In this document: one piece after another, positions 14,748-57,816 of the stretch
Numbering within the stretch: the stretch's first letter is position 1
Layout of the letters: each line of letters starts with the position of its first letter
Source of the DNA: Polytrichum commune
Lineage: Eukaryota > Streptophyta > Polytrichopsida > Polytrichales > Polytrichaceae
Length of the DNA stretch: 64,000 nt
Direction: 5' to 3'
NCBI GenBank assembly: GCA_950295325.1
Contig: OX485807.1
Coordinates: 45,498,796 to 45,562,795 of the forward strand
The notes under the pieces: generated by a model
The model's input: the letters and a program-made list of their open reading frames with translations, nothing else
Database searches by the model: none
What the model was told of the DNA's origin: nothing
Made by a program: the position numbers and the translations under genes

Positions 14748-14955
14748 ATGGGGATATTAACTAAAATGAGACAAATGGTCCGCTCATTTTAATGTGGGGA
14801 ACGTGATGGGAACGCAATGATTGATTTTTTTGTACGAGAGAATACCCGTAGAGGTTTTAGCCTCCACAAACCAAGTGTTCCAATGAAACCGGGCAAACAA
14901 TCAATTGTAATATGGAGGATCCCATCAAGGAAGACAAAAGGATTGTGCCTACACT

Positions 14956-14975
14956 CCATGGGTGAACACCCGTGG
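14956..14975. repeat. Element A dyad site (one mismatch), near left end
   Basis: CCATGGGTG/CACCCGTGG around AA, one base off the consensus. It lies about 200 bp inside the left terminus, downstream of the transposase-like gene. Confidence 0.8.
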
Positions 14976-15241
14976 ACTATTAAACATTGGACGACATTGG
15001 ACGACTCCCACATATTAAACATGTTGGCTAATATGACAATGCACATGAAAATTCACAAAAAAAGATGCCTTTAAAAGTGGTAGTTTGAACATCCGTGGGA
15101 CAAATGTCAATGTCTACGGCTCTCTAATTAATGCTCACAAAATTAAAATTGAGCTCCAAACATGCTAGATGGTGTCAACCATCTAGCCCACCCATGAGAG
15201 TCCACCCGTAGATACCCAGGAATGAGCAAGGCAACTTTAAT

Positions 15242-18221
15242 CTAGAGGTCTTCTGTTGGTACCCCATCCTCGAAAGTATCTCCATCAGTCATTTTCTCAC
15301 CTCTAGTGCATCGATCTAAATTATCCTTTGCGAAAAGAATTTGCCGAGCTGGGATGAGAACATTGTCATCGGACGCATTCCTTTGTCTTGCCCATGATGC
15401 CACAACACAATCTAGGGATTGATGTTGTGGTGCATAGTCCTTGAGCCTCGTCCATCGAAAAGATTTTGCCGTGTCCCATTCCTCATAACGTTCGTCTAAG
15501 GTCTTCTTGTTCCTTTGGCCAAGGACCGGTACATAATAGACAATCTCAATGGAACGAGGATTAGGACCGATATGTGCCAAATTCGGCTCAGAAATCACTC
15601 GTCCCATCCACACTGGATTAGGACAATCCTCACTAGGACGTAGTAACACATAATGGCCAATCCTGATATGTGCGCCGGGACGGAAGGTCTCAACAGGTCG
15701 AGAACTAGCTGGCCCCACGTAAGCATAATCAGTGATGTTTTCCTCAAGTAGATGCACATTATCCACATGGAGGGTTGGTGCAATGGAGAACCGTGTAGCT
15801 GGCCAGAATGGCTCGCTACGTTCAGATGGAGTTGGGAGTAAAGGTTGATCCATAGCCGCAAGCACATTCTCCCAATATAAAATTGTTGGTGCAATGGACT
15901 CCATATATTGACCCGAACTATCTTGATCTGCCGTATCCTTCCAATACTTAATAAAACCTTGCACCCCAAGCTTTATGTTCACGGAATCTTTCATCTCCCT
16001 TTTTGGAACGGGACGGGGGCACCCTACAAAAACAAACATACAATGAGCTCGGAGCAATACCACGGACTAACTGCCCACGGGTGATCACCCGTGGGCCACA
16101 TACTTCACACCATGTATTTTCTAGTGCACTTCCAAAGCAATACAAACAAGGGACCCACTAACCTGTTGGGACCATGGTCTTCTTTGTGATAGGGTCCACC
16201 TTCCAAAGAGCAATTCCTCCATCAGGCACCCAACTTGGATCTGTACAATACACTTTGTACTGCATCAATGGCACTCCTTGAGGATCTACATAAAAACGGA
16301 ATTGGTGCGCCTTGGAATGCCCAATAAGTCGATCTTGACCATACTCATTGTAGTATCCCTTCACCCATTCCTTGAAATCTGCAACCTCGTGGATTAAGGA
16401 CGGGACAATAGTGGGTTCCCCAGCAGCCATGAACGATGCCATGAGGTCTGGGAGTGTATGGCAATCCTCAATCTTCAGCCTTTGTCCAAACCTCCCAAAC
16501 ATTGCATCCACATCCTCATGCGTATGTCCAACAATAAGGAAAGACACCCTGACTTCCCGAAAAATTCCCTTTGCAGTCAGAGCTGACCAAAACAACATGT
16601 TGTATTTTGATTTGTTGTCCTTCGCACAATTGTCCATTTGAACAAGGAGGAGGGGTGGCAAACCTGTAGGAGGAATACTTGCGGGCGGTGGCAAGGGAAG
16701 TACTCCTGAACACTTCTCTACACCAACCACCAATGCGTCGTGTAAAGGATCACCTATGGACGAAATCGGAATGTGTCTACTAGAGCAAACAGGTTGTACC
16801 TCAAGTTGACAAAGCAACTTCATCATCGAGGTGATAGTGAAGTTGGCATCGGATGGGTACATATCAAGGACATAATGCGCATAATTCACATCTGAGTGAC
16901 CATGTGCAATCATCCCCGCAATGGATATGGGGAATCGCTCGTATTTGTCAACACGTTTGTTTTTGTGCGCGAAGACGGGAAGAGCCGTTTTCCCATAATC
17001 CATTTTGTCATGGATTATACAAAGCACCTCATTGGGAGCATACTTTGACAAAATCCTATCTTTATAGTAACTGTTTCTATGAGCCTCCTGCAATGTTAGA
17101 TGACGAAGGCTAGCATTCGAGATGGCCAAGTGACCAGTTGTGTTCTTTGTGTGTATTCGCAACAAATCCTTGAATGCTGCACAAGTTCCACAACGCGAGA
17201 AGTTGTCGCCGGGGCTCTTTATAACATACTGCTTGAAATGTTGTCGATGTAGGCGGCTGAAGGTGGACGTGGAGATAGGCGTGTACCCTAGGTCTCCGTC
17301 CAAGTTGTTCACTTCCTGCAATAGGTTGCACCACGTTGTTCCCACAGGGAGCATCTCCGTCCCTATCTTCTCACCAGTTGGAAGAGTCCGAGTCATATGG
17401 GGCATGGCGTCCGCCCTACCCTCAACCAATACTCCAAGGGTGGCTCGTGCTTGCACTGTATTCGCCTGTGGTTTTCTAGTTCCTGTATTTCCATGATCTC
17501 GAGATCTAACCCCCATCAAGCTTTCAGCCTTGTTCCTATTATATTGTGCCCTTGATATCATATAGATGTTCATCCATGCTCGAGTGCATATTGTTCTCCC
17601 TTCCAACTGCACCATTTCACGTCCGTTGTGCTCATGTTTCTGGATCGATTGGAACACCGACAGGGCTATGAGCTTCCGAGCATTGAATGGCAATGCGAAG
17701 TAGTGTTCCCGAATACTCATCAACAAAGGCCTTGGGAATACCTGGCAACAATGCTCGGAACAACAATCCACCGCTGATAACATCCGCGCATGCTCCTCAG
17801 TGGCTCCCCAAATTTTCTTCCCAGGTGGCCGAGGTGCACACATCCTCACAGTGTTGTATTGGCGTTTTCCAAGCAAGCGCCGATGACTTTGAACTTCGCG
17901 GGTCGCATTATGATGGACCAACAATATTTCCGCTAATGTATGTCCTTCAAATTTGGTGAGTGAAAGTGGCCATCGGTGCAGCGTATTCTCCCAATCTTGC
18001 GAAATAACATTGTCAGTTGGGTTCAAGATAATAACTCCAACATCCTCAGCCCCTAGGATGCTATTGTCAACACAATCCAACGGATTTGTGTTGCAAATCA
18101 ATCCATCACACAAAGCATGGCCCTCATCATCAAAGAGCACAACGGCCTTCCCCTTCAAGTCCGTCCTCGACAGTCCAATGTAATGTGGAATCTGAACATC
18201 GATATCAAAGTATGTCAACAC
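15242..18221 (-). CDS. Element A transposase-like protein (DDE type, DUF7869-like)
   Basis: Two exons, complement(join(15242..16023,16163..18221)), 946 residues. Donor CAG|GTTAGT and acceptor TTTGTAG|GG keep the frame. The core resembles the RNase H-like family I know as DUF7869: CIIHDKMDYGK (Asp405/Asp408), LVQMDNCAKDNKSKY (Asp530) and VGHTHEDVDAMFG (Glu569), a plausible DD38E triad. Upstream are a Cys cluster (DCCSEHCCQ) and FSRCGTCAAF, probable zinc ligands. The C-terminal 250 residues have a small barrel-like segment (GHYVLLRPS, PNPVWMGRVIS), possibly reader-like. Intact, no stops. It lies divergent from the big gene, and its upstream region holds a dyad-site cluster. The intron also carries a dyad site. 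Role as the transposase is inferred from position and motifs. Confidence 0.78.
16074..16095. repeat. Dyad site in the intron of the transposase-like gene
   Basis: Perfect 10-bp arms CCCACGGGTG/CACCCGTGGG with centre AT. It sits in the middle of the 139-bp intron. Confidence 0.95.
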
Positions 18222-18236
18222 ACATTGACCAGAAGC

Positions 18237-18257
18237 TCACGGGTGTTCACCCGTGGG
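18237..18257. promoter_or_regulatory. Dyad site just upstream of the transposase-like start codon
   Basis: CACGGGTG/CACCCGTG around TT, 15 bases upstream of the minus-strand ATG (18,219-18,221). The outermost bases are imperfect. The position suggests a 5'-leader or promoter-proximal site. Confidence 0.85.
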
Positions 18258-18751
18258 GGACAACATTGACATCTCAAGAGAATATTTACATTCATATAGG
18301 GGTGAGCTTTACACCTCACTTCACACAACTCAAGTGAAGTATGTGTTACTTATCATATCCCCATTGGGAGAATGACCCTTATTACCAGTTTCCACAAAGC
18401 CCAAACACCAAAACTATCACCCCTAACACTTACTTGTGTACAATTATTACTATGCATGTAGGTGTCACATCTGCTGGCCCAAGTGCTAGCGAAATAGTTG
18501 CCATTCAGGATAGTGTCAACATTCCAGTTTAACGAATATCATCGTCATCATTTATCATAATGCATCACGAAACTCCCAACTCGTAATAATATGTACCAAT
18601 TACCCATTGACAACATATTTCACATACTCAGCAGGAAATTTACAAATAAGCATAATTGCATATACAACTATTGAGTATGTCACACACATGATACATGCCT
18701 ATCTTATAACCACACATATGTAGGGAGAACTAAAATACAAATCATGAACTG

Positions 18752-19099
18752 CCACGGGTGAACACCCGTGGGGGCTTCCATGCTGGTGCCGGATTCTCCC
18801 ACGGGTGTTCACCCGTGGGAGGCTACCATGCTGACATCTACTACTAGAAAGTTTGTCACACACATGAGCATATGGATAACTTCTATTCTGACATATGCTA
18901 GGATAACCGAAATAAAAACCATAAGCTCCCACGGGTGAACACCCGTGGGGGCCCCAAACCCGGTACCAGAGTCTCCCACGGGTGAACACCCGTGGGGGCC
19001 CCAAACCGGGTGCCAGAGTCTCCCACGGGTGAACACCCGTGGCAGACTGGCCGTACAGGAGGGGTACGGCCAGAGTGTTGTCACGGGTGCACCCGTGGG
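18752..19099. promoter_or_regulatory. Cluster of six dyad sites upstream of the transposase-like gene
   Basis: Sites start at 18,752, 18,798, 18,928, 18,975, 19,022 and 19,082. Three are spaced exactly 47 bp apart and the first pair 46 bp, with conserved spacer sequence (GGGGCCCCAAAC, then AGAGTCT). The last is a shortened version lacking the 2-nt centre. This is the presumptive control region of the minus-strand gene. Confidence 0.9.
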
Positions 19100-19884
19100 A
19101 AAGTGGATGCACATTGGGGTTATAAAACCAACCTCTTCACTCATGTGAGGCACGCTCTCCATGGTTGCTCCTCAAGGGTGAAGGGGGGTGGACTCAAATG
19201 AGGAGAAAGAAATGACCCTCCAAATGGTGGCCTTTATATAGGTCGTGAGCATGGCCATCAACTTCTCATGAGGAAGTACAAGGCATTCCCTCCAAATTCG
19301 TAAGTACATAGACGTCATTCCCTCCAATTCCTATCGCTATTAGCTAATCACGTTCTAACCTTCCTCATATTGAATAATGATGACCTTCGGTAGTGGGGTT
19401 CTACATCGTATGTACATGGAGTGAAAATTTGTTACAAGGCGAAGGAGAGTCTTTGCGGTACCAATGATCATTGGATAACCTTTGCATACACCTCATACCA
19501 CTACCAAGCATACTCATGCCAAAATTACATAAGGACATGTGCACACATAACAGGTCCACCACTTATGATGGGCACCCTTGCAAAATGAATAGTATGAAGG
19601 TTAGGTATTGTTTCATCCGCAAGAGTTAACAACGACATGGGATTCTCTCACCAGAGTTATAGTTCCTTTATATTTTATAATTGTGAATAGGATGCCTATT
19701 TTGTGGGCAAGGTGCAAGGATAACCCGGTCAAAGCTACTATTATCTTTCATGATTGCAGTCTAATTTGGGAATATGATTGCACCCAAATTCAAGGTTTGA
19801 AGCTCAACACTAGCCTGCTCCTTTTAGAGCAACTAGCATTGTGGCCCATTGTGTTGCAACTTCGGAATAGTTTCATATACTTCT
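19100..19884. other. Spacer without recognised features
   Basis: AT-rich sequence upstream of the transposase-like gene control region. Short open frames only; nothing recognised. Confidence 0.5.
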
Positions 19885-21829
19885 CTCGAGGGGGGGTAGT
19901 CATTGGTTGGAGTAGCAATATACGTGCGAACAAATGATAGGGTATTTTAAAAACATGGGGGCTAAAAATTATAAATGGAGTTAAGAGTAATATAGGGTAT
20001 CAACCAGTATGCTCGACAGCTTTAAAGTCCTATAGGGTATGGAATAATAGGTAATTTGGAATTATAAGTAATGCAAGCCATTTTTCTATTAACCCAAAGT
20101 AGAAATTTACATAATGATAGCATCATTGTGAGAAAAATAAGAGAATTGAAAGTAACACCCCCCCTATAAAATAATGGTTGTTCGCACCTATATCCTTAAC
20201 TTTTTAACACACTGCCCCCCCCCCAAGATACTTATACTTTCCTAGCCTTGTCAACTTGCCTCGCTCCACCCCATTGTCCAATGTTGTATTTCATGAGCAA
20301 ATGTTTTGTTGTATCCCCATGATCATTCTTCTTAACCGACTTGACATGTGGCACACCTCAATTTCATGATAGTGGACATTTATCTTTATCAACTTTGTGA
20401 ATCTTCCATATCAAGTTCACACTTTATGGTTTTTTTATTTCTCAAATTCTCGCCGCCTCATTTCGCATTCTTTGCCTTCTCATTGTTTTGTATTTACTTG
20501 GAAGCCTCTAGCCTTGATGTCAAATTTTCTTTGGTCTTCATTACACTACCTTGGAGTTAGAAGCAAGCAATGTCATTTTTCCTTTGGTCTTTGATTATTG
20601 TACATCAAAGCAAACAACTCATACCCAACATAGTTGGAGTGCGTAATCTCATGGGTTTGAGAGTGTACGTAGTGTAGTTGGGGGTTTGATTATGGGAAGA
20701 GTGTTGGTAGCGTGAGCAAAGCGCATAACGTTTTTGGAGTGTAGTGTATAGTTGTGCGGAATAGGGAGCAATTTGTTTACTAGGATAATCCTATACATGA
20801 TGTAATGTTCTTTGTGAAATAGAGTTATGCATTTCCTAAAATTGATTTTGTGAAGTTTTGAATATGGGTACCAAATCATGAAATTGTTCACAACATGTAC
20901 TGAAATTGGTTGTTTAAATAATGAACTTGGTTCATATTTCCAATGAAATTGGAAGAACCTATCGCTAAATTGCTTTGTTAAATCATGAATTTGAGTTTGC
21001 ACTTTTGTGGATTCATCTTACCAAAGGAGTATGTGTCACTTTCCTTTATAAACCTCTTGGTTTTGTTCACGACTTTGAAACATTAAACATCAAAACCCTA
21101 AGGTCACAATCATGTACTTAAGTTATCGAAGATGACCATTGAGAATTATTACATCAAAACATAAAACCTTGAATTTATAATTATGAAGTTAAGTGGACCA
21201 CCTTTCCCAAACAATCTCAACCTTAACCTCAAACTCAACCTAAACCCCGATGGTTCACGGCAGTTTTTTCAAGTTAAGTTATCCAAGATGATTGTTGAAC
21301 ACTCTTCCCAAACAACCTCAACCTCATCATCAACGGTTCACAATGGCTTGTGGTGGTTTTATCAAGTTAAGTTATCCAAGATGCCCATTTAATAACTTTC
21401 TCATGTGACCTCAAATTTAGCACCAATGATTTGTGACCATGCCCAGCCTTGTCAACTTGCCACAACCTTGCCTCGCCCACCCCCATTAATAGTATGATAT
21501 AGGATGTGATGACTCAATACCTACCTAGACTCCTACTATGGCATTATACACAATTTGACAATTCGACCCTTCTCCCAATAGCTCAAGCCTAGGGTTAATC
21601 CATCTTTGACTTGAAAGCGCCACATGTTACAAAATGAATTTGCATGTATTGACTGAAACATGCAAAATGCCACCAAAGAGAGAGAGAGAGGGAGAGAGAA
21701 TCCATTTTCATGGCACCTCTTTGATTTGCACAACCCATTTTTCAACTTTTAGCATCACTTGTCATTCTTATCAATCATGATGTTGGACATGTAGCAACAT
21801 ACCATAGAGTTCCTTTGCCACAAATATGT

Positions 21830-21858
21830 GTGTGTGTGTCTATATGTATGTATGTATG

Positions 21859-21889
<31 letters not shown>

Positions 21890-21895
21890 GTGGCC
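21830..21895 (+). repeat. TATG/TA microsatellite
   Basis: Runs of TG, TATG and TA dinucleotides, about 65 bases. Confidence 0.9.
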
Positions 21896-21982
21896 AACTC
21901 GGGCGTCAATGCCCTATTTACACTGGGGAAATCATCAAATTTATAGCACTACGCTAGAGATGTTGATCCATTTATAAACCGG

Positions 21983-22008
21983 TTTAGGGTTTAGGGTTTA
22001 GGGTTTAA
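21983..22008 (+). repeat. Interstitial telomere-type repeat (TTTAGGG)
   Basis: Three to four head-to-tail copies of TTTAGGG, the common plant telomere unit. Similar short tracts lie at 25,899-25,930, 27,042-27,060 and 48,122-48,165. Confidence 0.9.
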
Positions 22009-22243
22009 GGTTATTTATTTCCTTAGCATTTTCAGCTCTGGGTTAGTAGGATAGGGCCTTGCATTACTTATATTTCCAAGTTACCTATTATTTCAAACCC
22101 TATAGTACTTTAAAGATGTCCAACGCCATTTTTGACACCCTATATTATTCTAAATCATTTTGTTCATTTTACGTCCCCATATACCCTCTCAATTTTTCGC
22201 ACGTATATTTCTACTCCAATACATCACAACCCCCCCCCCCGGT

Positions 22244-25200
22244 ATGTGTCCACTACATTTCTAGCTGCACTTCCTAGGTTTTACGCTATATACTTATGGG
22301 CCCACCACTTATGCCCTTTGGATGACCGTTTTGAGATCCCATGTCGAAATGATGGCTTAAGGCTGACCGATCGACAAGGCTGTAGAAAAACGCGACTCCA
22401 ATCATTTGACATGTCCTTGGATAATGCACATGTTTGGGTAGACTTAGTTTGGACACCACGTGTGTGATTAGAACTCCCAATGCAGCTAGAGGACATATAC
22501 TCCTTAACCTAAACCTTATGCCACAACACATACATTGAAACAACAATACAAAACAAACACATACAACCCCTTAATAGATGCAATGAGATACAATGGTTGC
22601 AATGTCAACCCCCTCTTCCCAAACTTGGATGCCCCAAATAGATAGTTGCACCCAACATAGCCCGGCTTCCAAAAGGAAGGCAATAAGCCCTATAATGAGC
22701 CCCCCCCCCCCCCCCCCCACCACCCCCAAACTCATGTACATTATAGAGCAAACATACTCAATTTTTCCTAATAAAAATTTCTTCCCCTTTTCAGGATGTG
22801 CTCTTCCATATGTGGAGAAAAACCTCACATTCAAGAGTACCTCTCATCGATCCGACAGAAAATATAAAACTAAACCCCCTTGGTTTAGACTAATTCCGTA
22901 ACTTTGAAGCTAATTACGGTGTCAAACCAATTGAATTTTTAAATAAAATGTTTTTGGATGAATGTTGGGTGTGCTTGTATGTGAGCATGTTTTCTTGTCT
23001 TTGCCCTCGGATTGATAGGCTTTGCCTACGCATGGGGAATTTGTGATAGCATTTACATCCTCAAGGGCTTGGGCTTCTAATGTGAGGCCCTATATACATA
23101 TCAATGTTTTTTTGGCCAACGAAATGGGATTATCGCATACGAGCATATTACTCTCATTCATCCAACAATGAAACTTTAAACTAGTATGTAGTAAGGAGGT
23201 TATTTTTCAAAGTTTATTGGAAACCCTATTTAGTTGAATTGACCCCAAATTAGTCTAGCCCAAGTTAGGGCACACTTTCATGTACCAATCGTTTTGGTGA
23301 AACAAAATAGAGTTCTCTAACGTTGGTGAAGGTTTTGCCGGTATCTTCAAGCATCTTTTGGACTGAGCACTCCCATGTGGAGTGGCAATGGTGGTTGGGG
23401 GGGGGGGGGGGTAGCAGATTCGGCTCGTTGCCCAAAACACAAGTTGAAACGTGGCCATCCTTGTACTGACGCACTTTAGTTGTTGATTGACTAGACTGAT
23501 TGATTTTTAATCATGGGATGCTAGAAAAATGAAAAACAAAATCTCCATAAATTAAGAAAACTTTGGGCAAGGTTTGAATAGTAAGAACATGGCATCATGA
23601 ACTCTCAATGTAAATACAACAAATTATGGTTCACACTAACAATGTATATAAAAACCAAGGTTTCTCCGCTCAAATGAAAATCAATTTCCATGTGCTAGAA
23701 TACCAACCTAGTCAAGTTTCCCTCCTCAAACTACAACTATCAATGAGCCCCACATACCTTATTAGTTTGGGCATGTGCCATCCTGACCCATTACACCAGT
23801 CCGTATGAATCATTTTGGGTTCATATCTTGCATGAACCCAACCACATACATTAACCCTTGCAAACCATATGCCCATGCCCCTGTAAAACCTTCATGTGCA
23901 TGTACGCACATAGCCCCACTCATAAGCCCCCGTGACCCGCTTTGGGAAAAAAAAAAAAAAAATGAATTTATTATCTTTGTTAACTAATTGTCTTTTTTAA
24001 CTAATTGCTAAAATAAAAAATGAATTTATTTAGTTATGTAGCATGTGAGCTCTCAAAACAACAGTCAGTACTCAATGCAATAAACTCTAATTGTTGCACC
24101 ATAGGTAGGTATCATGGGATGATTCAATACAACATCTACTAAGGGGAGGGAGACCAAGGGAGGGGAAGTCGAAAGCATTGGTAACAATAGGACTAGAGAT
24201 TTCTATTTAGAGATTATTAAACTACTCTTTAAAATCGGGGTCAAATACCTTTGAGTAACCTTTAAGTAACCTTTCCATAATGTCATGCTCCAATCCATGG
24301 GTATGACTTGTGGACTTGCCATAAAGTATTTTTGAAATCACCTTTAAGGAGAATATAAAAGCTCAATTTTGGACCGTGTAGCCATAGATGTTGCATCCAT
24401 GTGGGATTTGTTGTTGCTCAAATTTAGTACTTTGGTACTTAGGTTGTCAATCCATGTGCACTATCGACCCTACAATGACCGAAAATATTTTGAGAGTGTG
24501 CGATTGACTATGTTAGGTTATAATAAGGCTCTATGTGATAGCATGGTTATACTTACATGAGTACCCTTAGATGTGCACTTTGGGAAGGACATTCGAGGCC
24601 GTAAATATGAAAGTCAACAAATACCTTAACCGTACAAGCCCACTTGAAATGGCCGGGGATTCGTGGCACTCAAGTAAAGTCATCCGGTAACAAAAATCGG
24701 ATGAGTCCATCAAGAAGCTCGGATGGAGCTTACTTTAGTGAAATACCTCCGAGTTGGCATGTAAGACCTACTTTCTCCCTCATAGTTATTTTATAAATAT
24801 TAATTTGTTGGCAAGGGGCAATGATGTGGCCTTGGATGCTCTAAGCCTATTTTCCAACCTCCCATGAGATGTTTCCAAGGCCATGATGTGGCTTTGAATT
24901 TCACATGGTTATTTTGATAAATATTGTAAGATATCAATGTGTGCAATATATAATTATGAAGTGTTGTCATAGACATCTTTTTGTTCATAATTCATTTATT
25001 TTGCACATGTGTGATTGTTCAAACATTTGTAATATGGCACAATAATATATATCACCTTATGATAAATTGGTGAACTAAAAAACTCAATTCAATATTAGTA
25101 TTAGTATTGTTATTATTAGTATTTGCATAATAGTATTAGTATTAGTATTAGTATCATATAATTATATTTATTTAAAAGTAACGGTTATACACTATGTGAT

Positions 25201-25424
25201 TTGAAAGATAATACAATATGTGATGAGGATAAATTATTAAATAATTCAGATAGGCTATAGTCAGAAACTTATGATTTTCTCAGTAATATATACCCCATCT
25301 ATAACATTGTCCCACGAGTCTAATTCCAAATAACATATCATTTATTTATACCTTATTCTCTTATAAACACTTGCACTAATCTATCATTAGAATGACAAAT
25401 ATAAGTTATTTATGGTAAGTCAAG
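22244..25424. other. AT-rich spacer without genes
   Basis: No gene seen. It contains homopolymer C (22,699-22,718) and G (23,397-23,411) runs similar to the termini of the neighbouring element family, and a TTAGTA microsatellite (about 25,095-25,155). Confidence 0.5.
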
Positions 25425-25575
25425 CGGATTTTAGTGCACTCAATATGGGATTTGTAGTCAAGCGGCCTTCAAGAATGCAATTTTTGGTCGGGTTTAGAAA
25501 TTTTCTCTACAAGATTGCCCCAACCCAGATTAGATACCTCCAAAAGTTCGTGAGGGGGTATTTAACGTCCGCCCA
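25425..25575 (+). mobile_element. Relic arm of the Mutator-like foldback family
   Basis: CTCAATATGGGATTTGT, GCCTTCAA(G/A)AATGCAA and CCAAAAGTTCGTGAGGGGGT match the right arm of the 8594-9764 foldback at reduced identity and with internal deletion. It ends in CGTCCGCC where the intact copy has CGTCTGCC. Confidence 0.75.
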
Positions 25576-25584
25576 TGTTAAAGC

Positions 25585-28058: not shown

Positions 28059-28066
28059 TCCCTAAG

Positions 28067-39188: not shown

Positions 39189-39213
39189 CCGGACCTTTAT
39201 GGTGATAGATTTT

Positions 39214-45571: not shown

Positions 45572-45715
45572 CCAACCTAAACAAACCACCAATAAAATGA
45601 CCAACACAACAACCACCGCAATGCATACAAAAGTGGATACGAGATATGCCTACATATATGGCTCAAAAATCACAAACAACTCTCGCCACACCGTTGCGGG
45701 ACCTCACATATGAAG

Positions 45716-46793: not shown

Positions 46794-49080
46794 CGTCCGG
46801 TATTTACGGCGGTATATACGGGTATGTACAGTCTGTAGTAGACCTGGGTGGTGTAGGGTTGGCGCACAAGAAAATGGTTTGAGCGCGTTCCAGTCAGGTC
46901 TGTGAAGCGCACACTTGGATGTGCCGCAGAAAAGAGCTCTTCTGTGGGGGGGAAGAGCTTTAAGTACCTTCCCCCCGATGGTTCAAAATCCCTTGGATGC
47001 TATTTAAAAAGCGGATTCCCGCCGCCTACTTTGACCTAACAATATGCCATTCCATCCATGCGCAATATATAAATAGCATTATGTATGGAACATGTCTTGC
47101 GTGCACGCAACATATTGTAAATCTATAAATCCGTCGCACACCTTAGTTGTTACCAAGGTCGCACGAAAATATGTCTATATGTCTATATGTCTATATTTAT
47201 ATGTATATATATGTATATATATGTATATTTTACTATTTTACTATTTTATATATGGGTTATTATATTTTATATATATAGGTTGATGGGTTAACATTGAGTA
47301 TTAAATTATTTGCGACTAAGGTGTGAAGTCCAAGTGAATTGATGAAGGTCTAAGTGATATATATATTCACACACACAATGAGGTAAGAGTGGCTACGAAC
47401 ATATTGTGGAATCCCCTAAAATTGTAGGTATCATATGATTCACATAAAAAAAATGCTTGTAATATGGTCACCAAGTGCATGAATACCAATAAAAAGTCGC
47501 TTAATTCATAATGGCTTGTGCTAGGTAGATTGAGGACATTTGGAACTAGAGGCTCACCAAACATCGGCCCATATTAATATGAATCATTGTTGAAATTCAT
47601 CATTGGTGAAAATTAAAGTTTAATGCACTAGTATTCGATCGTTAGTTCAAGTTGACACCTAATTAAATGACTTGACGTCCTATTGGAAATTCACTTTAGG
47701 TCCACCATGGTGTGGAAATGGATAACGAATTTGGAATGGTGCATACAATAGTATGCACTTACAATTATATATTTGTATTATTTGCAACAAGAAGTATGTG
47801 CATGACCATAGCTTAACTGTTGATTTAAGTTGAAGTCTTATACCATTCATGTTATAATAAGACTAAGTGTGTATTGTGTGATCAAATTGCACTCAAAACT
47901 ATTAAGGTGAAAGGGCTAGCATTTCAAAATTCACTCTTCACCCCCTAAACCAATGTTTTATATCAAAATGACAATTATTGGCATGAGTCTAGATTATTAT
48001 AGTTGCTATGACCCAAATAAAGCAATTTCCAATCGAACCAACATTGGTAGACCATTTTGACATGATGCGCATAGACCACAACATGGCCATATATAAGAAA
48101 GGTTGGTAAGATAAAAAGATGTAGGGTTTAGGGTTTAGGGTTTGGGGTTTGGGGTTAGGGTATAGAGTATGTGAAAGAGTTGTCTATGTGGTTTGCGGGC
48201 TTAGGGTTTAGATCGTTACTTCAATGCATTATATACACAAACAATATCGACTTCTAAATAATCCATATCGCACTAACTTAATTTATGGGAAGCTCATACT
48301 ATCAATTGATACTACTAGCAAAACATGCGACCACATGGCTAAAATACACTACACTAAATATGATATTTAGTGTTTGATTGTATAATATAGTGTTGTTACG
48401 CTATCATGGTCAACACTAAATTTCAATTCTTTGATAATTAGTGTTGGACATATTAAATGGGCCACCACATTTCCTACTACCATGTCCTTTATGCTTTTAT
48501 CATTGTTAATTGTTTTTTTCATATTAATTTCCTTACACAAAATTTGTGCATGCGACATCCACATATTACCATTATAGTTGACATTAAGTGTTTGAGTTCG
48601 CAATGAATAGTAGTTACCTTCATAGGGTTAGTGATATTTAGTGTACTATGCGTTTGTATTTAGAGTATCTAACACTAAATATCATATTAAGGGTGGTTCA
48701 AGCTAAGACCTCATGAAATTAATGACATCGTATTGAAAATTGAATTTTCATCCACCTCTTGTGGAGAATCAGATAGCCCCTCTCCACAATTTAAATTGAG
48801 TCATTTATATATGTAATATTTATTTGAGGAACCATTGAAGAACTTTAAAGATGTCTCGTTCATGAAAACGACATTTGCATCTTGGGGGTGGATTCTTCAT
48901 CGAAAACCTACTAAATGACATGAATTGTTAAATACAAATTATCTGAAGATACTTTTCTAAAATATGTTTACAAGGAATCCATATGTCGAGGTACTAAGGG
49001 GATACGGAAAGTCAAATTTATGTCCCTAAACTAAGCTCCTCCCATCTCCTATTTCATTTTTCCTGAACCCTCATCCCTCC
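46794..49080. other. AT-rich spacer of Element B
   Basis: No gene. It contains a TATATG microsatellite (about 47,160-47,230) and TTTAGGG-type repeats with TTTGGGG variants (48,122-48,165). Confidence 0.55.
48122..48165 (+). repeat. Interstitial telomere-type repeat with variants
   Basis: GGGTTTAGGGTTTAGGG followed by GGGGTTTGGGGTTAGGG units. Confidence 0.9.
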
Positions 49081-49088
49081 ATGTCCCC

Positions 49089-49425
49089 ATGGTATCCCCT
49101 CATCCCCATCCCCTCCCCCTCCCCTTCTCCCATCCCATCCTCATCCCATCCCCTCCCCATCCCCTCCCATCCTCATCCCCTCCCCATTCCCTCCCCAATC
49201 CCATTCCCCATTCCCCATCCCCATCCCCATCCCACATCCCCATCCCCATCCCCATCCCCATCCCACATCCCCATCCCCCTCCCCATCCCCATCCCACATC
49301 CCCATCCCACATCCCCATCCCCCTCCCCCTCCCCATCCCACATCCCCATCCCACATCCCCATCCCCCTCCCCCTCCCCATCCCACATCCCCATCCCACAT
49401 CCCCATCCCCCTCCCCCATCCCAGC
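49089..49425 (+). repeat. CCCCATCC / CCCACAT minisatellite
   Basis: About 340 bases of six- to eight-base C-rich units. Open frames on both strands here are artefacts. It lies about 1.6 kb upstream of the Element B big gene. Confidence 0.9.
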
Positions 49426-49616
49426 CCTCGCCAGTGGCCACTAGCCACGTGGCCGCCGCTTGGAAACCCTAGCGGCGCCGGCTACCTCCCCGCGCCCCTC
49501 TCTCTCCTCCTCATTTGTCATTTGGAGCAGAGGAGGAGAGGAGCTCTTAGGTGCGGCAAAGCCCTTGCCAATTTTAGAGCCTCATTGTGAATGTTGTTTT
49601 GTTGTGTTGTCAGAAC

Positions 49617-49940
49617 CTTGAGAATAGGAAAGCTTGAGAGTAGGAAAGGTTGAGAGGTTGAGAGTTATAGAAAGCTTGAGAGGTTTAGAGTTTTAGAAAG
49701 CTTGAGAGCTTGAGTTTTAGAAAGATTGAGAGGTAGAGAGTTTTAGAAAGCTTGAGAGGTTTAGAGTTTTAGAAAGCTTGAGAGCTTGAGTTTTAGAAAG
49801 CTTGAGAGCTTGAGTTTTAGAAAGCTTGAGAGCTTGAGTTTTAGAAAGCTTGAGAGCTTGAGTTTGAGGTTGAGAGGTTGAGAGTTTCAGAAAGGTTGAG
49901 AGCTTCAGAGCTTCAGAGCTTCAGAAAGCTTGAGTTTTGT
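49617..49940 (+). repeat. GAGAGCTTGAGTTTTAGAAAG tandem repeats (21-24 bp)
   Basis: At least ten imperfect units built from TTGAGAG, CTTGAG and TTTTAGAAAG. They probably lie in the transcribed leader of the big gene, counterpart of the repeats at 30.1-30.7 kb in Element A. Confidence 0.88.
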
Positions 49941-50389
49941 GAAGCTTGTGAGTTGTGTACATCAGGGTTTGTGTAGGATTTGCATATAAGTTGTGAAGGC
50001 TTGAGAGTGTGACAAAGTGAAGGCAGGAGGATTTGTGTGCAACAATTCAATGTGAGTACAGGTTTCCTTTACAAATCACTCCTTCACAATCTGAAATTGT
50101 TGTTTGATGAATTCCTTGTGATTTGTGTTCTGCATTATGAGGTATGTCATGTTTTGTATGAAATAACACTTTCCTCTTCATTCTGAACTATCAATCACTG
50201 ACTCGCAATTTTGTTCTGATTCCATTTTTCACTTGTGTTTCATCAATCTGATCACGAGTTGCAGGATCATGAACAATGGCAGATTGCAACATTCATACCA
50301 ACATTTATACGTATATATACGTATACGTATATGTACGGATATATATGTACATAAATAAATATACCATTTCCTAATCCCAGATGACCACA

Positions 50390-50935
50390 TTTACGAACGT
50401 TCGTTCGTAAATGTGGCGTGAATACATGCCTTACCCTACAAACATATACGAACGTGCGTTCGTAAATACGCACCTCACCCTCCATTTTTACGAACGCACG
50501 TTCGTATATTCGTCTATACCCTGTACATCAGAAAATCCTCAAATCCAATTACACATACAAAAATACGAACGAACGTTCGTAATCACAAACTATAACAATA
50601 TACCAAACCCTTCATGGTAATTGTCTGCATTTCCAAGTAGCATTATTTACGAACGCACGTTCGTAAATAAGAACTAAAGTATTAATTCACCTATTTAGAA
50701 GATGCTCATGGAAATTAGATAACCCTGGACAACTCGTGGACTTGTTTAGAAACAATACGAACGCACGTTCGTAAACTTGTGTCAAATACACCTTAGCAAC
50801 CACATTCTTTACGAACGATCGTTCGTAAATGAAATCAGCGAAGACATCATTACAACTTCTCACGGGTATCCATAGCCAGAGTTCAATGATTAGTGTATAT
50901 GATTTGCTTTGTCAATTACGAACGCTCGTTCGTAA
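50390..50935. promoter_or_regulatory. Cluster of eight Element B dyad sites upstream of the big gene
   Basis: Sites start at 50,390, 50,445, 50,487, 50,562, 50,646, 50,754, 50,808 and 50,916. The last ends about 30 bases before the ATG at 50,967. Element A carries its array at the matching place. Confidence 0.94.
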
Positions 50936-50966
50936 ACACAATACTAAATGTTTATGTGCTCTGCAG

Positions 50967-53900
50967 ATGGCAAGACCGAGCAGAAGCGCCATTGAGATGT
51001 TCGCAGTGCAGATAGATCAACTACCAGAGTCAGTGTCCGACCCCAACGGAAACGATAATTATGTCCCCAAAGAGGACTTCATAGGGGAATGGACGGCACT
51101 GCCAGAGAAGACATCAGACGGTCTTTTCTGTCTTCGCTTCACATACGAGCTGGAAACGACGCCGGACCAGCCAGAGCAATGGGTGCAGATGAAGACTTGG
51201 GAAGTAGAATCAATTGAGGCACAAGGAGATTATGTGATTCTAGACATGAAAAACAAGAAGGATCACATTAACCTATTGTTAGAGTACAGGAGACATAGTT
51301 TCTCCTACACATACGCGGAAAATAACGTAGTGGCTGATGCCAAACACTTCCTCAAGGACCTCTTCACGAAGTACGCCCTGAGCTCGTACTGGACAGCAAG
51401 GAAGTTGGCCGCGCTCTCCTTGAATATTTCCAAGTACAATAGCGCGGTCGCGGAAGCCAACAAGAAAAAGAAGAGCCCACGGAAACCATCCGCATCCGGG
51501 GCAGGAGGATCGAGAAGTGCACCCAAGCCGGTGCCTTCCGCGAGCAGGGTGACGGAGGGTCCCAGCCGACATTCCACGCCATCGAAGAGGTCCCGGGACG
51601 AAATGGAGAGGTGTGGGGTAACAGAGGGCGCTGAGGTGAGCTCTCCTCCCGTGATGCCAACCCCTTTAAAGAAGGGTGAGAATCCAGATGCGGTGAAGGC
51701 AACGAAGATCCTACGAGATTTCAATAATTACTCGAAGGATTGCTGGCCCATGGGGCGCCACTTCACGTTCAACGTGGACTGCTTCAAGTGCGAAAAGTCA
51801 CCCAACAAGTGGGTGGTAAGGTCTCGCGAGAGCGGTGGGGTGAAGTGGCAGATAAACAACCTCATGAATAACGTCAAGTGGGATAGACAGACAGTGTGCG
51901 TCATGCCCAAGGGGCTGACATCCCGACCGACAGAGGTGGATTGGCCGCGAATCCAGAATGGAGAATTCTGGATTATAGATGGTCAGCACAGCTTGGAGGC
52001 GTCGCAACAGATCCTCAAGGACAACAACTTCCAGCACGAGCTGAAGGCTGACCTGCGGTACTGGAAGGCGTTCTTGGTCTGGTCGGACGATTGGGACAAG
52101 CTGCGCAAGATTTCAACCTTCCTGAACTCGGGGAACAAAATCAAGGCGTTCGAGGCTTCGTGGGCGGCTAACATAGTGGCTGCCAGAGACGTCTGGGTGG
52201 CACACGGATGCCCACCAAAGGAAAGGGAGAACGCCAAGAACCAGTCTCCCCAATGGAAGGTGAGTTTACGAACGAACGTTCGTAAAGTGTTAGATTCATG
52301 AAAACTTCAATTACATACTCAATTTACGAACGTGCGTTCGTATTATGTGCAACACTGACATCTTGTTTTGTGCAGGCATTTTGCGACGCGATGGTAGACA
52401 AGTTCTCTTCCATCGATATGAAGTCCACCACCACCAAGTCAGTGCTTGAGCTGAAGGGTGAGCTCAGACTGATCTGCTGCAATAGGGACACCTGGGACTT
52501 ATGGACACAGTTTTTTGATGCACACAACTCGGGCGATTTGGTCAATCCCGACACCGAGGAGAAGTACAGCACGGAAAAAACCGGTGAGGCGCCCCCACTA
52601 CTGAGGGAGTTCTTTAGACACCTCCAGGGATTGACGGAGTCAGAGCTGAAGAGGTGTGCGATTCATGTTCTTGGGAACACCGTGGGAAGAAACCTTCCCT
52701 ATCCCAAGATCTTTTTGAAGAGGCCAAAGTACAAGCCCGACACGTACTCTATTAAGGAGTGGTGTGACCACCGGAAGCTGAAGACTGCTGCCATGAGAGA
52801 ATTGAGCGTACTCGCACCAGAGTACAAAATCTTTGAAGTCGACGGCGACATCAACTGGCCGCAATGGCAATTGTTAAAGGTCGACTACAACATCAACGGA
52901 GCCTCCATGCGCAGTCTGGTCAAGGAGCACGCCTCGGTTTTGAAGTTGAAGGGGAACAAAAGGACTAAGAAAACCGACACGGATCCCCACGAGGTAATGT
53001 TGTACATACAATTTTTGGAGAGGAAGAGGAACGCCACATTCGAAGGGGTGGCAAGGTTTTGCGTGATGACCTCCGGCGTGGAGAGGGTCACATTTTCCAA
53101 GTGGGACGGCACCATAAGCAAGGCCGAGGTGAGGGAGGATCGACGGGGTTGCCCTTTTGCCCTGATCGATTTCAGGGGGATCCCGGGTGCGTCAAGGCAG
53201 GGGGGGAAGGACATTCCCTTCTACAACCCCTTCATGGCCAAGTTCATGGAGTTCAAATCGCCGGCCATGAGGGAGCCACACGTTTGGCTGTGGATAGTCG
53301 AACAGGAGAAGCTGTCGGTCGTCACAGAGCTGTACGAGCAGAAGATCAAATTCGAGTACAGCATCTTCCACAGCACGTACGTGCCAGCAAAGACGGAGGG
53401 GATCGTGGCCATCAACGAGGCCAGGGGCAACAAGCAAGTGGGAGCGGTCAGCCTGATTTTCTTGACGTACAATGAGCTTAGGGATGGGCGACCGCCTATC
53501 AAGGCGAACAACACGTTCAAGAAAATCTACAGCATCCCGCATCCCCCTCCCAAGGATCTGCTGCAAGAGACCCTCTACACCATCTTCCCCGCCATGGAAC
53601 TCAGGATGGAGTTCTACGTCTCTATATTGCAGAGTCTGGTTATAAGTGGAGAGACGGTATACAACGTATGTGGAGGCTCCAAATTCATGTATGCGGCCAT
53701 GGTAAGTTGTCCAGACTCCATTTACGAACGCTCGTTCGTAAAGTTAACCAACTTCTCAACGCATTGTTTCAAAGTCGCTGCACGTGACGCATTGATGTTT
53801 ACGAACGCTCGTTCGTAAACATAACCCCCTTCGTAATGTAATGCTTGAAACTCGTTGCACGCCACGCTTTGATGTTTACGAACGTGCGTTCGTATTTTCT

Positions 53901-56719
53901 GACCTTATTGCTCTCTTCTCACAGATGATGGGTCTCGTAGTCAACACCTTCGTTGACGCTATCGACGAAGAAGACTTCAAGTTCCACCGTGCGAAGGCGT
54001 CGACGATGGACCTCAAGGACATCTCTGTCCCAAGGATGGACTTCAGTATGCCCGCCGACGAGGGCATACCACTCCACGATTCAGAGGACGACGAGCCCGC
54101 CCCCTCCGCCAACGTGGACGCCATTCTGCAGTCCTTCGATGTACCCCCGCTTCGGATCTTGCCGCCAACGACAGATCTTCCCGACCCTCAAGGGACTCCG
54201 GGTGGTTATACAGGGTCGTCCGCGGGGACAACCCTGGACCTCCTCCCCGCACGAACGTCTCTTGCGGAGCCTTTCGGAACGCCAGGCGGATGCTCGACGT
54301 CACAGTCTCCAAGGCCCGCCGTGGTTCCGAAGATGGAAACCCTGGACATCCTCGACCAACGCTCGCGCCCATCTTTGGACCTCTTCCGCAACACGAGGAG
54401 GAGGATGAAGAAGACTCCCTACGTGGAGTTGCCGCCGGGAGCAATCATCGAGGTCTCCGACGAGGACGAGGGGGACATGGACATCATGGCCGAGCTTGGG
54501 GTGGACTACGACAAGAACAAGCGGGTGAAGGAGGAGGCGCTTACCGTCTCTGAGCTCAACGCCAAGCTGGAGGCGAAGATGAAGGAGGAGATGGCTGCAG
54601 CCCAGGAGGAGAGCGCCAAGCATCTGGCCAGGCTGCAAGAGCAGCTGAGGGAATCAGCGGCCAAAACTGACGCCATCTTCGAGATGCTCAGAAACATGCA
54701 GAGCTTCTCTGCGCCGGTCCAACAACCTTACCCCTTCCCCCCTGGAGGATACCCCTCACAGCCCCCACCTCCAGTCATGTACCAAGGAGGGCCTTCCCAC
54801 CAAACAGCGCCACACCCAACGCCGGCGGGAAGTCCATTGCCCCCGGAGGTGACGGCGACCGCCTCAACCTCCCACGATGCAATCACGGCGGCGCTAAGGG
54901 AGGATGAAGATTTACGAACGCGCGTTCGTGAATCTTCAGGTCCGGCAGTCCTCACCCCTCCCCCTTCAAGGGTAGGACTGCCCACAGACACGGACACGAC
55001 CTCTTTCACCGTCGTCCCAAGGGTTGTAGATAGGAGGGGCGATGACACTGCGCAACACACTGACATGGTCATTGTGGAGGAAACGCAGGGGAGCCCCAAT
55101 GACTCGGCAGGTCCGCGTGGGATGGTCGTGGAGAGCCCTGAACAGGAACGACATCCATCCGCGCACATGGAGGATGTCCGCATGGAGAGACTCGACCTGG
55201 GCAGGGACGACGACGTGGAGCTCATCCAATAGACCCAGTCGTCTCAGGCGGAGCGTCCGGCGGAGGTCATGGATCCAGAGGCTGCTGCCCCAATGGATAT
55301 TACGAACGCGCGTTCGTTAACCAAAGAGGTAACTCATCTCTGAGAATGCCAAATGTTTTACGAACGCGCGTTCGTAACATCACTAACCCCCGCGTTGTGT
55401 TCTTGGCACTTCAACTCCATCGACATCACGTTGCCCGCGCGAGCCTTTTTCTACGTGATCCCTTGGGCCGATCAATTTTGTAGGACACTGAATTTTTTCC
55501 TTAGGAAATTGTGATAGATTATCACGCGAGACAAATGTACATATTCACCGAATTAATATATGAGCAGACGATCTCTGCTCGCATCACCACAACTTATTGC
55601 ATATTCTCGCGTCTTGTGTTGTCTGTGCTCTTGCGCGTCTTTGCATTCTTTGCATACACACCTCACTCACGAACGCTCGTTCGTAAAACTGTGCGACCCC
55701 CTCTCGACTTCCTTCGCGAACGAGCGTTCGTATATGTATGCATCCGCGCTCACGAACGAGCGTTCGTAAATGATGCGCACCGCCCCCGCAGCCTTCATTC
55801 ACGAACGCTCGTTCGCAATTGTGCCCTTGTGCATATTTCCTTGAACCCTCCTTACTTCCTCCTCTTTTCCCATAATGCATCGTCTTTATTTTGAACGCAA
55901 AAATTTCATTATTGGATCATAGAATTAAACTAGTCGCGTTGTTCATCACAGGACCCCCCGGAGATAGGTCGCAACCTCTCGACCAGTGGACCTCGAACCC
56001 GGAACAAGCCTTTCATAGTTTTTGACCTCAACGGGGTCTTGTGTCACACCCAACACATCCCCAGGGTTCCCACGCGTCCCTTCCGTCACCCCAACGAAAG
56101 GGACTATGACGGCGAGCTCGACACCCTCATAAACCGCAAGGCTGTCCGCGCCCGTCCCGGCCTGCGCGACTTCCTTCGCGAGGTGGTCGAGTTCGCCCAC
56201 GTCGTTGTGTGGAGCTCCATGGTCATGGACAACACGGAGCCCATCGTCGACTTCTTGTTCCGTGATCTCCCGCGCCCTTGCCTCGTCCTCGGCCAAGAGG
56301 AATGCGACGAGCTGCTCGACGAGAAGGGCCAACCGGTGCCCAATTTTGGCGGTCGAGGCGGAGGACAACAGTTCCTCAAGGTCCTCCGCTCGAGACTCTG
56401 GCGAGGCGTCCCCTGTCTGCAAGGGACGCCGCACGGGTGGTGGCCGACTCCAGAGAACACCGTCCTCATCGACGACAGCCCCACCAAGAGCGTCTTGAAC
56501 CCCCCGGGAAACGTCATCTTCCCGGACACTTGGACCGGCGATAGGCAAGACACATTTTTGGTCGATAGGCTAGCCCCCTACCTTAGAAGGCTCGTGCTCC
56601 ACGCCGGTAGCATCTCATTTTTTGTTAGGTCCAACCCCTTCGGCAATGCGGCGCTAAGCCCCCGCGATAATGTATATAAGAGCATCATGAGGCTCGCCAA
56701 ACTCAATAAATTGATTTGA
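50967..56719 (+). CDS. Element B multidomain protein: ParB-like, methyltransferase-like, HAD (one in-frame stop)
   Basis: Join 50967..52259, 52376..53701, 53925..55328, 55952..56719, all phase 0 and GT-AG, 1595 residues if the TAG at 55,230-55,232 is ignored. The ATG follows a splice acceptor (CTCTGCAG|ATG), so the leader is spliced. The N-terminus is MARPSRSAIEMF: no H3 mimic beyond MAR. WIIDGQHSLEASQ (Asp338-His341) matches a DGQH signature better than Element A. The second exon has LIDFRGIP and a VWLWIVEQEKL strand, then VYNVCGGSKFMYAAM where a methyltransferase would have FxGxG. The third exon is Glu/Pro-rich and disordered with a coiled coil. The last exon is HAD-like (VFDLNGVL, IDDSPTKS) and has no start codon of its own. 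Introns 1 and 2 match Element A positions. The TAG may be a lesion. Confidence 0.75.
52265..52344. repeat. Two Element B dyad sites in intron 1 of the big gene
   Basis: Sites at 52,265-52,286 and 52,323-52,344. The intron is homologous in position to Element A intron 2, which carries an A-type site. Confidence 0.95.
53721..53896. repeat. Three Element B dyad sites in intron 2 of the big gene
   Basis: Sites start at 53,721, 53,798 and 53,875 at an exact 77-bp period with similar spacer sequence (GCACG, ACGC(A/T)TTGATG). Confidence 0.95.
54911..55320. repeat. Two Element B dyad sites inside coding exon 3
   Basis: 54,911-54,932 is read as Leu-Arg-Thr-Arg-Val-Arg-Glu. 55,299-55,320 is read in another phase as Ile-Thr-Asn-Ala-Arg-Ser-Leu. 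The second lies after the in-frame TAG. The different peptide readings argue the DNA site, not the peptide, is what is kept. Confidence 0.93.
55357..55819. repeat. Five Element B dyad sites in intron 3 of the big gene
   Basis: Sites start at 55,357, 55,666, 55,713, 55,749 and 55,798. The last four have outer arms drifting to CTCACG or TTCGCG. Confidence 0.92.
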
Positions 56720-56830
56720 AATGCCTCCATGTCTTTGCTTGTTATCATGTGGTTCACATATCTAATGCTTGCCCCGTTTTTGGATGTCTTTTGTTGTTGT
56801 GATTGTTGTTGTTCTTGTTCTTGCCCATAG

Positions 56831-57816
56831 TCTGCCCCCATATGCGACGCCCCTGTGGTCGACGGCTCTTCCCGTCCCCTCTCGCTCCCCGCATCCCCTT
56901 CCCGCAACGTCACGGACTTCCAAATGCCATCCCTCTACCACTTCTCGGCGGTCGACGCGGCCTCGGCCGTGGATTACTCCTGCGACGTCGGCATCGACGA
57001 CGGCGTCGTCAACAGCCCGCCCCCAGCACTTGTCCCCCGCGCGTACGCCCCGTCGCCCTCCCCCCTCTCCAAGGAGAAACGGACGCTCGTTCGTTTGGGA
57101 CACCTCTCGCCCTCGAGGGACGACGCCGTCGCTCGTCGCGGGCCGAGCCGCCGTCTCCGCATGGAAGGCCCCCGTTGCCACACCTCCCCCGCCGACTCCG
57201 TTCCTCCCCCCGCAACGTCCTCCGCGATCGTGGGCCCTCCACGCCTCGACTCCCCCCCGCCATCCAACATTGCAATAGTTCCATCGGCTCCGGATGCTCC
57301 CGTCGACGCCCCCTTCGTTCCCACCGTTCCCCGCATGGACGTCCCCAAATCCAAGGTGCCCTCCTCAACCCTAAACCCCTTTCCCGCTTTTGCTTTCCTT
57401 GTCTTCCGTTTGCGTGCCGTTCTCTTTACGAGCGCCCATCCCAAACCGCCCTCATTATTTTCCCCACTCCATTCCTATTCTTATCTTCCTATGACGTTGT
57501 TTCGCAGGTGGCTACCTGCTCGCTTGGTGCCCGGCCCTCCTCCACGTCCTCCTTGGATAGGCACGCCCTCAAGGCCGCATCTTCCGAGTCCGATCGTTGT
57601 CTGGCCCTCCGGAGAAGCGCAAGACGTTCCCTTTCGCAAACGCCCTCGTATTCTACTTATAATACCACCTCGTACAATTCGGGAGCGCGTCCTGAAACAT
57701 GCAAGAACGACACATATTCCTATCCAGGCAACACACAAGGATTCAGTCGTGGGCCTGAGATTTTTAGAGCCATGGAGGCCGCCAAAAAAAAGGACTTAGC
57801 CGCCAAAAAAAAATAA
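56831..57816 (+). CDS. Element B third ORF: Pro/Ser/Arg-rich protein (start unresolved)
   Basis: Exons 56831..57355 and 57508..57816 join in phase (CCAAG|GTGCCC and TTTCGCAG|GTGGCT), 277 residues. The first exon opens at a splice acceptor (GCCCATAG|TCTGCC) only 110 bases after the HAD stop. It has no early ATG; the first in-frame ATG is at 56,924. The product is low-complexity, with RRSARRSLSQTP and a Lys-rich C-terminus (AAKKKDLAAKKK). A degenerate dyad site (57,080-57,096) lies in its first exon. Same place as the third ORF of Element A, so the pair is probably homologous despite weak similarity. It might be an alternative 3' end of the big transcript. Confidence 0.45.

Follow-up and report, generated by a model that had tools for sequence, protein, structure and literature searches.

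The window analysed here is a stretch of 64,000 nucleotides from Polytrichum commune (contig OX485807.1, positions 45,498,796 to 45,562,795), part of a 407.8-Mb assembly. It contains two complete, related and adjacent DNA transposons, elements A and B, which share the same gene layout. In both, the minus strand encodes a DUF7869 transposase, and the plus strand carries a divergent second gene (gene 2) made of several frames followed by a NIF/FCP1-like domain. Each element also carries its own set of dispersed palindromic sites, or dyads, defined as inverted arms separated by a 2-nt spacer.

The two transposons and their dispersed dyads

Element A is bounded by inverted ends of 34 bp that are 91% alike (14748-14781 and 39814-39847), and is flanked by the target site duplication (TSD) AACC at 14744-14747 and 39848-39851. 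Element B, which starts with AACACTATATTCG, is flanked by the TSD ATGT at 42028-42031 and 58219-58222. A preliminary description, made from the letters of this DNA, had recognised both transposons and had placed the right end of B at 57816; the real end lies about 400 bp further, at 58218. Like the two window elements, all 12 readable pairs of other genome copies display a 4-bp duplication (16 copy pairs were fetched, with both ends readable in nine of 10 A pairs and three of six B pairs), whereas none of 72 mismatched A pairs does.

Comparisons with published systems, here and below, draw on excerpts of the cited sources. The elements do not belong to CACTA (EnSpm), which is characterised by CAC..GTG termini and a 3-bp TSD (PMC12730594): their termini are ATGGGG in A and AACACT in B, and their TSD is 4 bp long. 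The same length separates them from two groups of KDZ, Kyakuja and Zisupton, with TSDs of 7 and 8 bp, respectively (PMC12730594); the comparison covers these two groups, not Dileera. Both A and B display the combination of a 4-bp TSD and terminal inverted repeats that characterises Sola, in agreement with the 4-bp TSDs of Sola2 (PMC3627910). The transposase matches DUF7869 and gave no Pfam match to a MULE domain at E 0.1.

When up to 3 mismatches to the 7-2-7 core are allowed, the window contains 25 A sites and 35 B sites, in agreement with the 25 and 31 or so initially reported, and none of either kind lies outside its own element. With the full 20-base arms, also at up to 3 mismatches, 21 A sites (all in 14955-39234) and 26 B sites (all in 46022-55819) are found, compared with 0.00 for both in 100 shuffles; at up to 2 mismatches, dyads with permuted arms gave means of 0.12 (A) and 0.04 (B). 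Within the 10-base arms, the three outermost bases are variable and the conserved core is 7-2-7. This 16-bp core is ACGGGTG-NN-CACCCGT in A and ACGAACG-NN-CGTTCGT in B, both of which fit the consensus ACGRRYG-NN-CRYYCGT.

As the preliminary description had claimed, the dyads lie upstream of each of the two divergent genes, in the intervals that separate exon frames, within the low-complexity exon (35443 in A) and towards the 3' end (Table 1). The exon limits given for A and B are deduced from open frames and alignments rather than transcripts. Three of the A dyads (18928, 18975 and 19022) follow each other with a spacing of 47 bp. The dyad words were not found in the inverted ends of A and B. 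At up to 2 core mismatches, the B site nearest to the left end lies about 3.7 kb from it; on the right, the nearest is a further 3' site at 57076 (1 core mismatch), about 1.1 kb from the end, and the next lies at 2.4 kb.

Table 1. Features of elements A and B, in window positions (pieces of gene 2 are named by open frame)
Feature	Position	Strand	Details
Element A, complete DNA transposon	14748-39847	.	inverted ends and TSD
A dyad	14955-14976	.	207 bp from left end
A transposase, downstream frame	15242-16066	-	33% identical to B 42435-43604 over 258 residues
A dyad between both transposase frames	16074-16095	.	
A transposase, 692-aa open frame	16158-18236	-	DUF7869 (PF25273, E 2.4e-46)
A dyads at/upstream of transposase frame start	18236-19043	.	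18236, 18751, 18798, 18928, 18975, 19022
A dyads upstream of gene 2	31142-31623	.	31142, 31189, 31237, 31284, 31554, 31602
A gene 2, first frame	31909-33237	+	predicted ParB-fold block (VVNGQHT); fold modelled on a D copy
A dyad in inferred first gene-2 intron	33283-33304	.	
A gene 2, second frame	33388-34677	+	no Pfam match
A dyad between second and third frames	34756-34777	.	
A low-complexity frame	34917-36809	+	contains dyad 35443, translated PHGCSPVG
A dyads before NIF frame	36952-37076	.	36952, 37055
A NIF/FCP1-like domain, gene-2 exon or third gene	37295-38119	+	PF03031, E 4.6e-11
A 3' dyads	38362-39608	.	38362, 39213; 39396 and 39587 with 2 core mismatches
Element B, complete DNA transposon	42032-58218	.	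TSD
B transposase, four frames	42435-45649	-	DUF7869 (PF25273)
B dyads upstream of transposase frames	45713-46793	.	9 at up to 2 core mismatches
B dyads at/upstream of gene 2	50390-50936	.	8
B gene 2, first frame	50829-52268	+	predicted ParB-fold block (IIDGQHS)
B dyads in inferred first gene-2 intron	52265-52344	.	52265, 52323
B gene 2, second frame	52340-53707	+	
B dyads in 77-bp tandem repeat	53721-53896	.	53721, 53798, 53875
B low-complexity frame	53796-55232	+	dyad 54911 within
B 3' dyads	55299-55819	.	55299, 55357, 55666, 55713, 55749, 55798
B NIF/FCP1-like domain	55934-56719	+	PF03031, E 1e-16

Several other features were observed in and around the elements. The divergent genes of A are separated by about 12 kb (19100-31100) of mostly non-coding, largely AT-rich DNA; the distance between transposase and gene 2 is about the same in A3 as in the window element and shorter in A2 and A4. 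Telomere-like runs occur in A (GGTTTAG, at 21981 and 25898) and in B (TAGGGTT, near 48122). The catalytic motif of NIF/FCP1 proteins is DxDx(T/V); at its place, the domain of A reads DVNG and that of B DLNG, and both are possibly altered phosphatases. A stretch just outside A (14614-14697) is 72% identical over 87 columns to one located between A and B (40437-40523). To the left of A, LINE-like frames with endonuclease and RNase H domains extend over 2446-14049 and include an inverted pair of about 510 bp (8594-9096 and 9764-9257, 97% identical). Two A copies, at C5:45514956 and C5:45656204, lie about 141 kb apart and encode transposases that are 100% identical (rounded); similar pairs on C3 and C4 were observed, and such near-identical pairs may result from recent segmental duplication or local transposition.

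Family-specific words across the genome

The preliminary description had expected every further family member to carry a dyad of its own. This was found in 22 of 24 stretches located beside transposase or gene-2 matches, each with a 2-nt spacer and a family-specific word, and it failed for both stretches of family F. The sample comprises 12 transposase-side stretches, hand-picked for divergence, and 12 gene-2-side stretches, in two sets of four and eight (the eight being B and D); several belong to the same family, and 20 additional short transposase pieces served for family sorting only and were left out of the dyad scan. A recurrent dyad is present in 10 of the 12 transposase-side stretches and in 4/4 and 8/8 of the gene-2-side ones, although L083 has two exact copies only.

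Six family words are thus distinguished: ACGGGTG in A1 and A2 and ACGGGCG in A3 and A4, ACGAACG in B, ACGGACG in C, TGGGTCG in D and TGAGGCA in E. In a matrix of exact counts, families A1 to E form a block-diagonal pattern, each having its own word and zero copies of the other six. Group B1 and four other B groups carry ACGAACG only, and C carries ACGGACG only (three exact sites, nine at up to 2 mismatches). A transposase is present in every sampled dyad family, A to E. The two family E stretches (L029 and L030) contain 26 and 58 dyads, allowing up to 2 core mismatches, in arrays with a period of about 57-62 bp that resemble a small satellite.

Counted on one strand of the genome, the A word occurs 1323 times and the B word 7916 times at up to 2 mismatches (one occurrence of the reversed-pattern control in each case), while exact counts reach 9231 for the D word, 177 for the A3 word and 1917 for the word of a repeat family, G, described below (control 0 for each). 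Copy counts are lower bounds, because only 150 of the 1491 first-look candidates of the genome search for DUF7869 were scored. The A words do not show the random spread that the preliminary description had named as contrary to its proposal: among the first 50 of the 1323 places, all on C1, 38 lie at most 30 kb from an A gene match. Ten of the remaining 12 were inspected, of which nine fall in seven loci of family G and one in an A fragment.

The closest view of a word change is given by groups A1 and A3. In their alignment, T is replaced by C in both arms at 16 of the 21 A1 sites, with a further change in the A3 arm at 19022 and 38362. Among the other five, 16074 and 39213 are changed in one arm, 18236 and 34756 are lost and 14955 is degraded. 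The 50-bp flanks of the 16 switched sites are about 40-66% identical between A1 and A3, and the transposases of these groups are 88% identical; those of A1 and A2, which share an unchanged word, are 94% identical. Eleven of the 16 switched sites belong to arrays, in which copies are paired by alignment only and array turnover could have helped the change. The other five (33283, 35443, 36952, 37055 and 38362) are single, and therefore array homogenisation is not enough to explain the switch. On the gene-2 side of A4, C is found in both arms at 8 of 13 sites; on its transposase side, no alignment was obtained for six of eight sites (18236 and those of the upstream array). Two exact C-type sites also lie upstream of the transposase of L023. 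Genome-wide, exact A-type words carrying A or G at the switched base numbered 0, versus 177 for those with C.

The preliminary description had further held that neither set of dyads occurs outside its element. This is true within the window, but the words are not strictly private genome-wide, since repeat family G carries A words beside its own. G has a 10-2-10 dyad, GAGGCCTCGG-AT-CCGAGGCCTC, in long arrays, and is inferred to be a transposon because its copies are near-identical and dispersed. Its loci are L077, L074, L078 (C1:47956000-47974500), L069-L073 and L076; the fetched stretches contain 76 exact G cores, 16 exact A cores and one A3 core (in L077); the three D words in this count come from a fragment of D gene 2 lying at the end of L078. 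The idea that isolated A sites are non-autonomous A copies was not borne out at the eight loci fetched: seven are G copies and one (L075) is an A fragment. Among the matches listed, the seven G loci resemble A at the sites and nowhere else, and the 1.5 kb fetched includes no end of A. The 711-aa frame of G gave no DUF7869 match. Further A3 words lie at most about 3 kb away from two G loci, L070 and L076, and a stretch of family E (L030:4216-4416) is 80% identical to a 203-bp stretch in G loci L071 and L073.

Gene 2 as candidate reader of the dyads

Among the families compared (A, B, D and E), gene 2 is homologous in A, B and D, and also in E according to hhalign (probability 93%, E 2.7e-7). 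It gave no convincing match in Pfam, NCBIfam or PADLOC. Its conserved block includes an R, a DGQH-type motif, whose versions in A, B and D are DGQH[S/T] and NGQ[HY]T, and SxxxN. This block was modelled from a D copy of 219 aa with an alignment of 11 rows (mean pLDDT 57.9, about 70-85 in the core). The first 39 Foldseek matches in the PDB, the best with E 1.6e-3, were ParB, Noc, KorB, sulfiredoxin, SbnI and one Agrobacterium protein, viral ParB-like proteins came at the top in BFVD (best E 6.5e-4), and VIA-align paired the model with Myxococcus ParB (Z 9.5, rmsd 2.1 over 95 residues). The model thus suggests, with modest confidence, that the block has a ParB-like fold. The VIA-align matches also included SspE, with Z about 3.5.

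Judging from its substitutions, gene 2 is under purifying selection: the ratio of non-synonymous to synonymous divergence (dN/dS) amounts to 0.13-0.20 over the six comparisons whose dS stays below 1.8, compared with 0.12-0.19 for the transposases of A1-A4. Gene 2 diverges faster than the transposase, and where measurable (window 31930-34674 versus L033-L035) its dS is about threefold higher: 0.45-0.52 versus 0.15 between A1 and A2, 1.67 (second frame) versus 0.52 between A1 and A3, and 1.42 versus 0.48 between A3 and A4. The NIF domain is low again, at 0.43 between A1 and A3. This threefold excess may reflect exchange of gene 2 between elements, a regional rate difference, which fits equally well, or homogenisation of the transposase.

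According to the preliminary description, the dyads are what one expects of an element-encoded dimeric DNA-binding protein that co-evolves with its sites, a proposal that the sequence comparisons support. We infer that gene 2 encodes this reader. It is favoured over the transposase because predicted fold and site form agree, ParB-type proteins and a 16-bp core going together. In the interpretation towards which we lean slightly, the predicted ParB-fold protein would bind the palindrome of its own family as a dimer and would concentrate on the promoter and intron arrays, sites being located around promoters, between exons and near the 3' part. Many occupied sites would mark the element as self and keep its genes transcribed against host silencing, by anti-silencing or self-activation. 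Reader and word would change together, new families thus arising with new words.

Various observations weigh against this interpretation. Those on the fold come first: sequence and profile searches, including PDB sequences, found no ParB relative of gene 2, and the structural argument relies on a modest model built from 11 rows. No Foldseek match in the PDB reached E 0.001, TM-scores on the query were low for the first 39 matches (0.28-0.37, one 0.27), and a Z of 9.5 is only somewhat above the 7-8 typical of models without clear match. The model obtained for a longer A4 gene-2 frame was poor (mean pLDDT 40.1); no Pfam match to a helix-turn-helix was found after the ParB-like block, in a region where the longer model is too poor to add anything. 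Furthermore, the nucleotide (CTP) motif of ParB is of the GERR type; gene 2 displays DGQH[S/T] or NGQ[HY]T instead, which makes nucleotide use by its protein doubtful. Other points concern the sites. Exons also carry them, unlike VANC21, whose exon probes lack the motif. The EGNHR-containing frame of G, tried as a gene-2 homologue, reached an hhalign probability of 0.7%, its likeness being EGNHR alone. Finally, the two family F stretches (L031 and L032) have a DUF7869 match and, in L031, gene-2-like frames recognised by eye, yet no recurrent dyad, and a looser search found no cluster above shuffles either; a short repeat in four copies around AACCGGTT in L032 does not have the geometry of the dyads. 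Members devoid of dispersed dyads, which the preliminary description had itself named as contrary to its proposal, thus exist in that branch, which may be decayed or may lack a site system.

A more elaborate scheme, which we regard as possible but rather doubtful, is drawn by analogy with ParB-parS. The gene-2 protein would load at the dyads, form a nucleotide-gated clamp, spread as a coat along the element and exclude silencing factors; each family would have its orthogonal pair, and G would poach the words of others.

Alternatively, the gene-2 protein may read the dyads but repress the transposase and itself as copy number rises, like plasmid autoregulators of the ParB/KorB type. The arrays upstream of both genes and the presence of KorB, described in the PDB as a transcriptional repressor, among the structural matches agree with such a role. 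We nevertheless consider it unlikely: numerous sites are found in the intervals between exons, within exons and in 3' regions, and the 67 A transposase matches listed include 28 near-full-length ones with 98-100% identity, 25 of which lack any in-frame stop. So many near-identical intact copies would fit poorly with strong self-limitation.

The reader could also be the DUF7869 transposase, which would pair the ends or regulate itself, like TNPA, which binds subterminal motifs of CACTA elements. This would agree with its presence in all sampled dyad families, A to E, and with the A sites located near the ends (one 207 bp from the left end and another, which has 2 core mismatches, at about 240 bp from the opposite end). 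It is made improbable by the distance of the B sites from the ends of B and the absence of the words from the inverted ends, by the switch of 16 of 21 words between elements whose transposases remain 88% identical, and by the occurrence of the same geometry in G beside a frame without DUF7869 match.

Transposons often carry sites for host factors, and the elements might have borrowed host transcription factors as enhancer-binding proteins. This appears very improbable, as a separate host factor would be needed for each word and 16 A3 sites would have had to shift together to the word of another one. Least credible of all is that the dyads, although near-perfect and partly arranged in tandem arrays, are RNA or DNA hairpins or by-products of local tandem duplication without any sequence-specific reader, since any compensating pair would then do, yet all 16 doubly changed A3 sites, five of them single, adopted one and the same new pair, and no exact word with A or G at the switched base was found genome-wide.

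Comparison with known systems

VANDAL elements are MULEs, whose transposase is VANA. To our knowledge, sequence-specific self-marking by a transposon has been demonstrated for the VANC proteins in Arabidopsis. Non-coding regions in which motifs are dense are bound by VANC21, and the element loses methylation along its length; introns and intergenic parts harbour VANC motifs, and those of VANC6 also occur in AT9TSD1, an unrelated repeat (Hosaka et al., PMC5735166). The likeness to the Polytrichum elements is extensive (PMC5735166, PMC10398659): in both cases, an element-encoded protein is less conserved than the transposase, family-specific motifs are enriched in non-coding parts, such as promoters and introns, often as tandem repeats, subgroups differ by one base, and an unrelated repeat, here G, carries the motif of the element. 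However, according to these excerpts, VANC motifs span 8-9 bp and are not dyads, whereas the dyads have a 16-bp core; VANC has DUF1985 and DUF287 domains, for which gene-2 frames gave no Pfam match, whereas the candidate reader has a predicted ParB-like fold. As the transposase is DUF7869 and not MULE, the elements are not members of VANDAL, even though they would work alike, with binding and anti-silencing shown for VANC and proposed here.

The second comparison is with ParB, Noc and KorB, which have the fold predicted for gene 2 and recognise sites of about 16 bp, several of which lie on the encoding DNA (PMC8494293, PMC8367383); the parS acted on by ParB is 16 bp long (PMC8494293). Only the model of the gene-2 block displays this fold. 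The parS sites are palindromic, like the dyads. Unlike ParB-parS, the system described here resides on eukaryotic-type transposons, with none of the 17 A and B frames (among 20 scanned) matching a ParA-type Pfam family, a DGQH[S/T] motif, tens of sites per element and a different word for each family.

The nearest precedent found for the gene-2 protein is that of Sola1-1_Ec32, a 21.5-kb DNA transposon of Ectocarpus, which also encodes a ParB-like accessory protein on the strand opposite to the transposase, and whose authors suggest that proteins of this type might act by binding and modifying the element that encodes them (PMC12477816). This protein is, in contrast, a fusion of ParB and methyltransferase, and the excerpt of its description makes no mention of dispersed private dyads (PMC12477816). 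The DGQHR/DndB and GmrS domains of the ParB/Srx superfamily are also similar, with DGQHR and FxxxN there and DGQH and SxxxN here; they belong to bacterial DNA-modification or restriction proteins, and their final R and their F are not conserved in gene 2 (PMC4619093). Among the matches listed from the openly licensed PMC literature, no description of the present system was found, which does not show that it is unpublished, and no paper on DUF7869 was found in that literature.

The thousands of genomic sites, in at least six words, constitute a natural series of predicted protein-DNA pairs, in which A1 and A3 provide a clean one-base switch. If the proposed reading is true, the co-evolution of specificity is directly testable and the gene-2 proteins are a possible source of orthogonal DNA-binding domains, while G, which carries the words of other families, looks like a parasite of the marking system. 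Globally, a logic similar to that of VANC seems to have arisen with a different transposase, a different type of site and, as far as the model indicates, a different, ParB-like fold.

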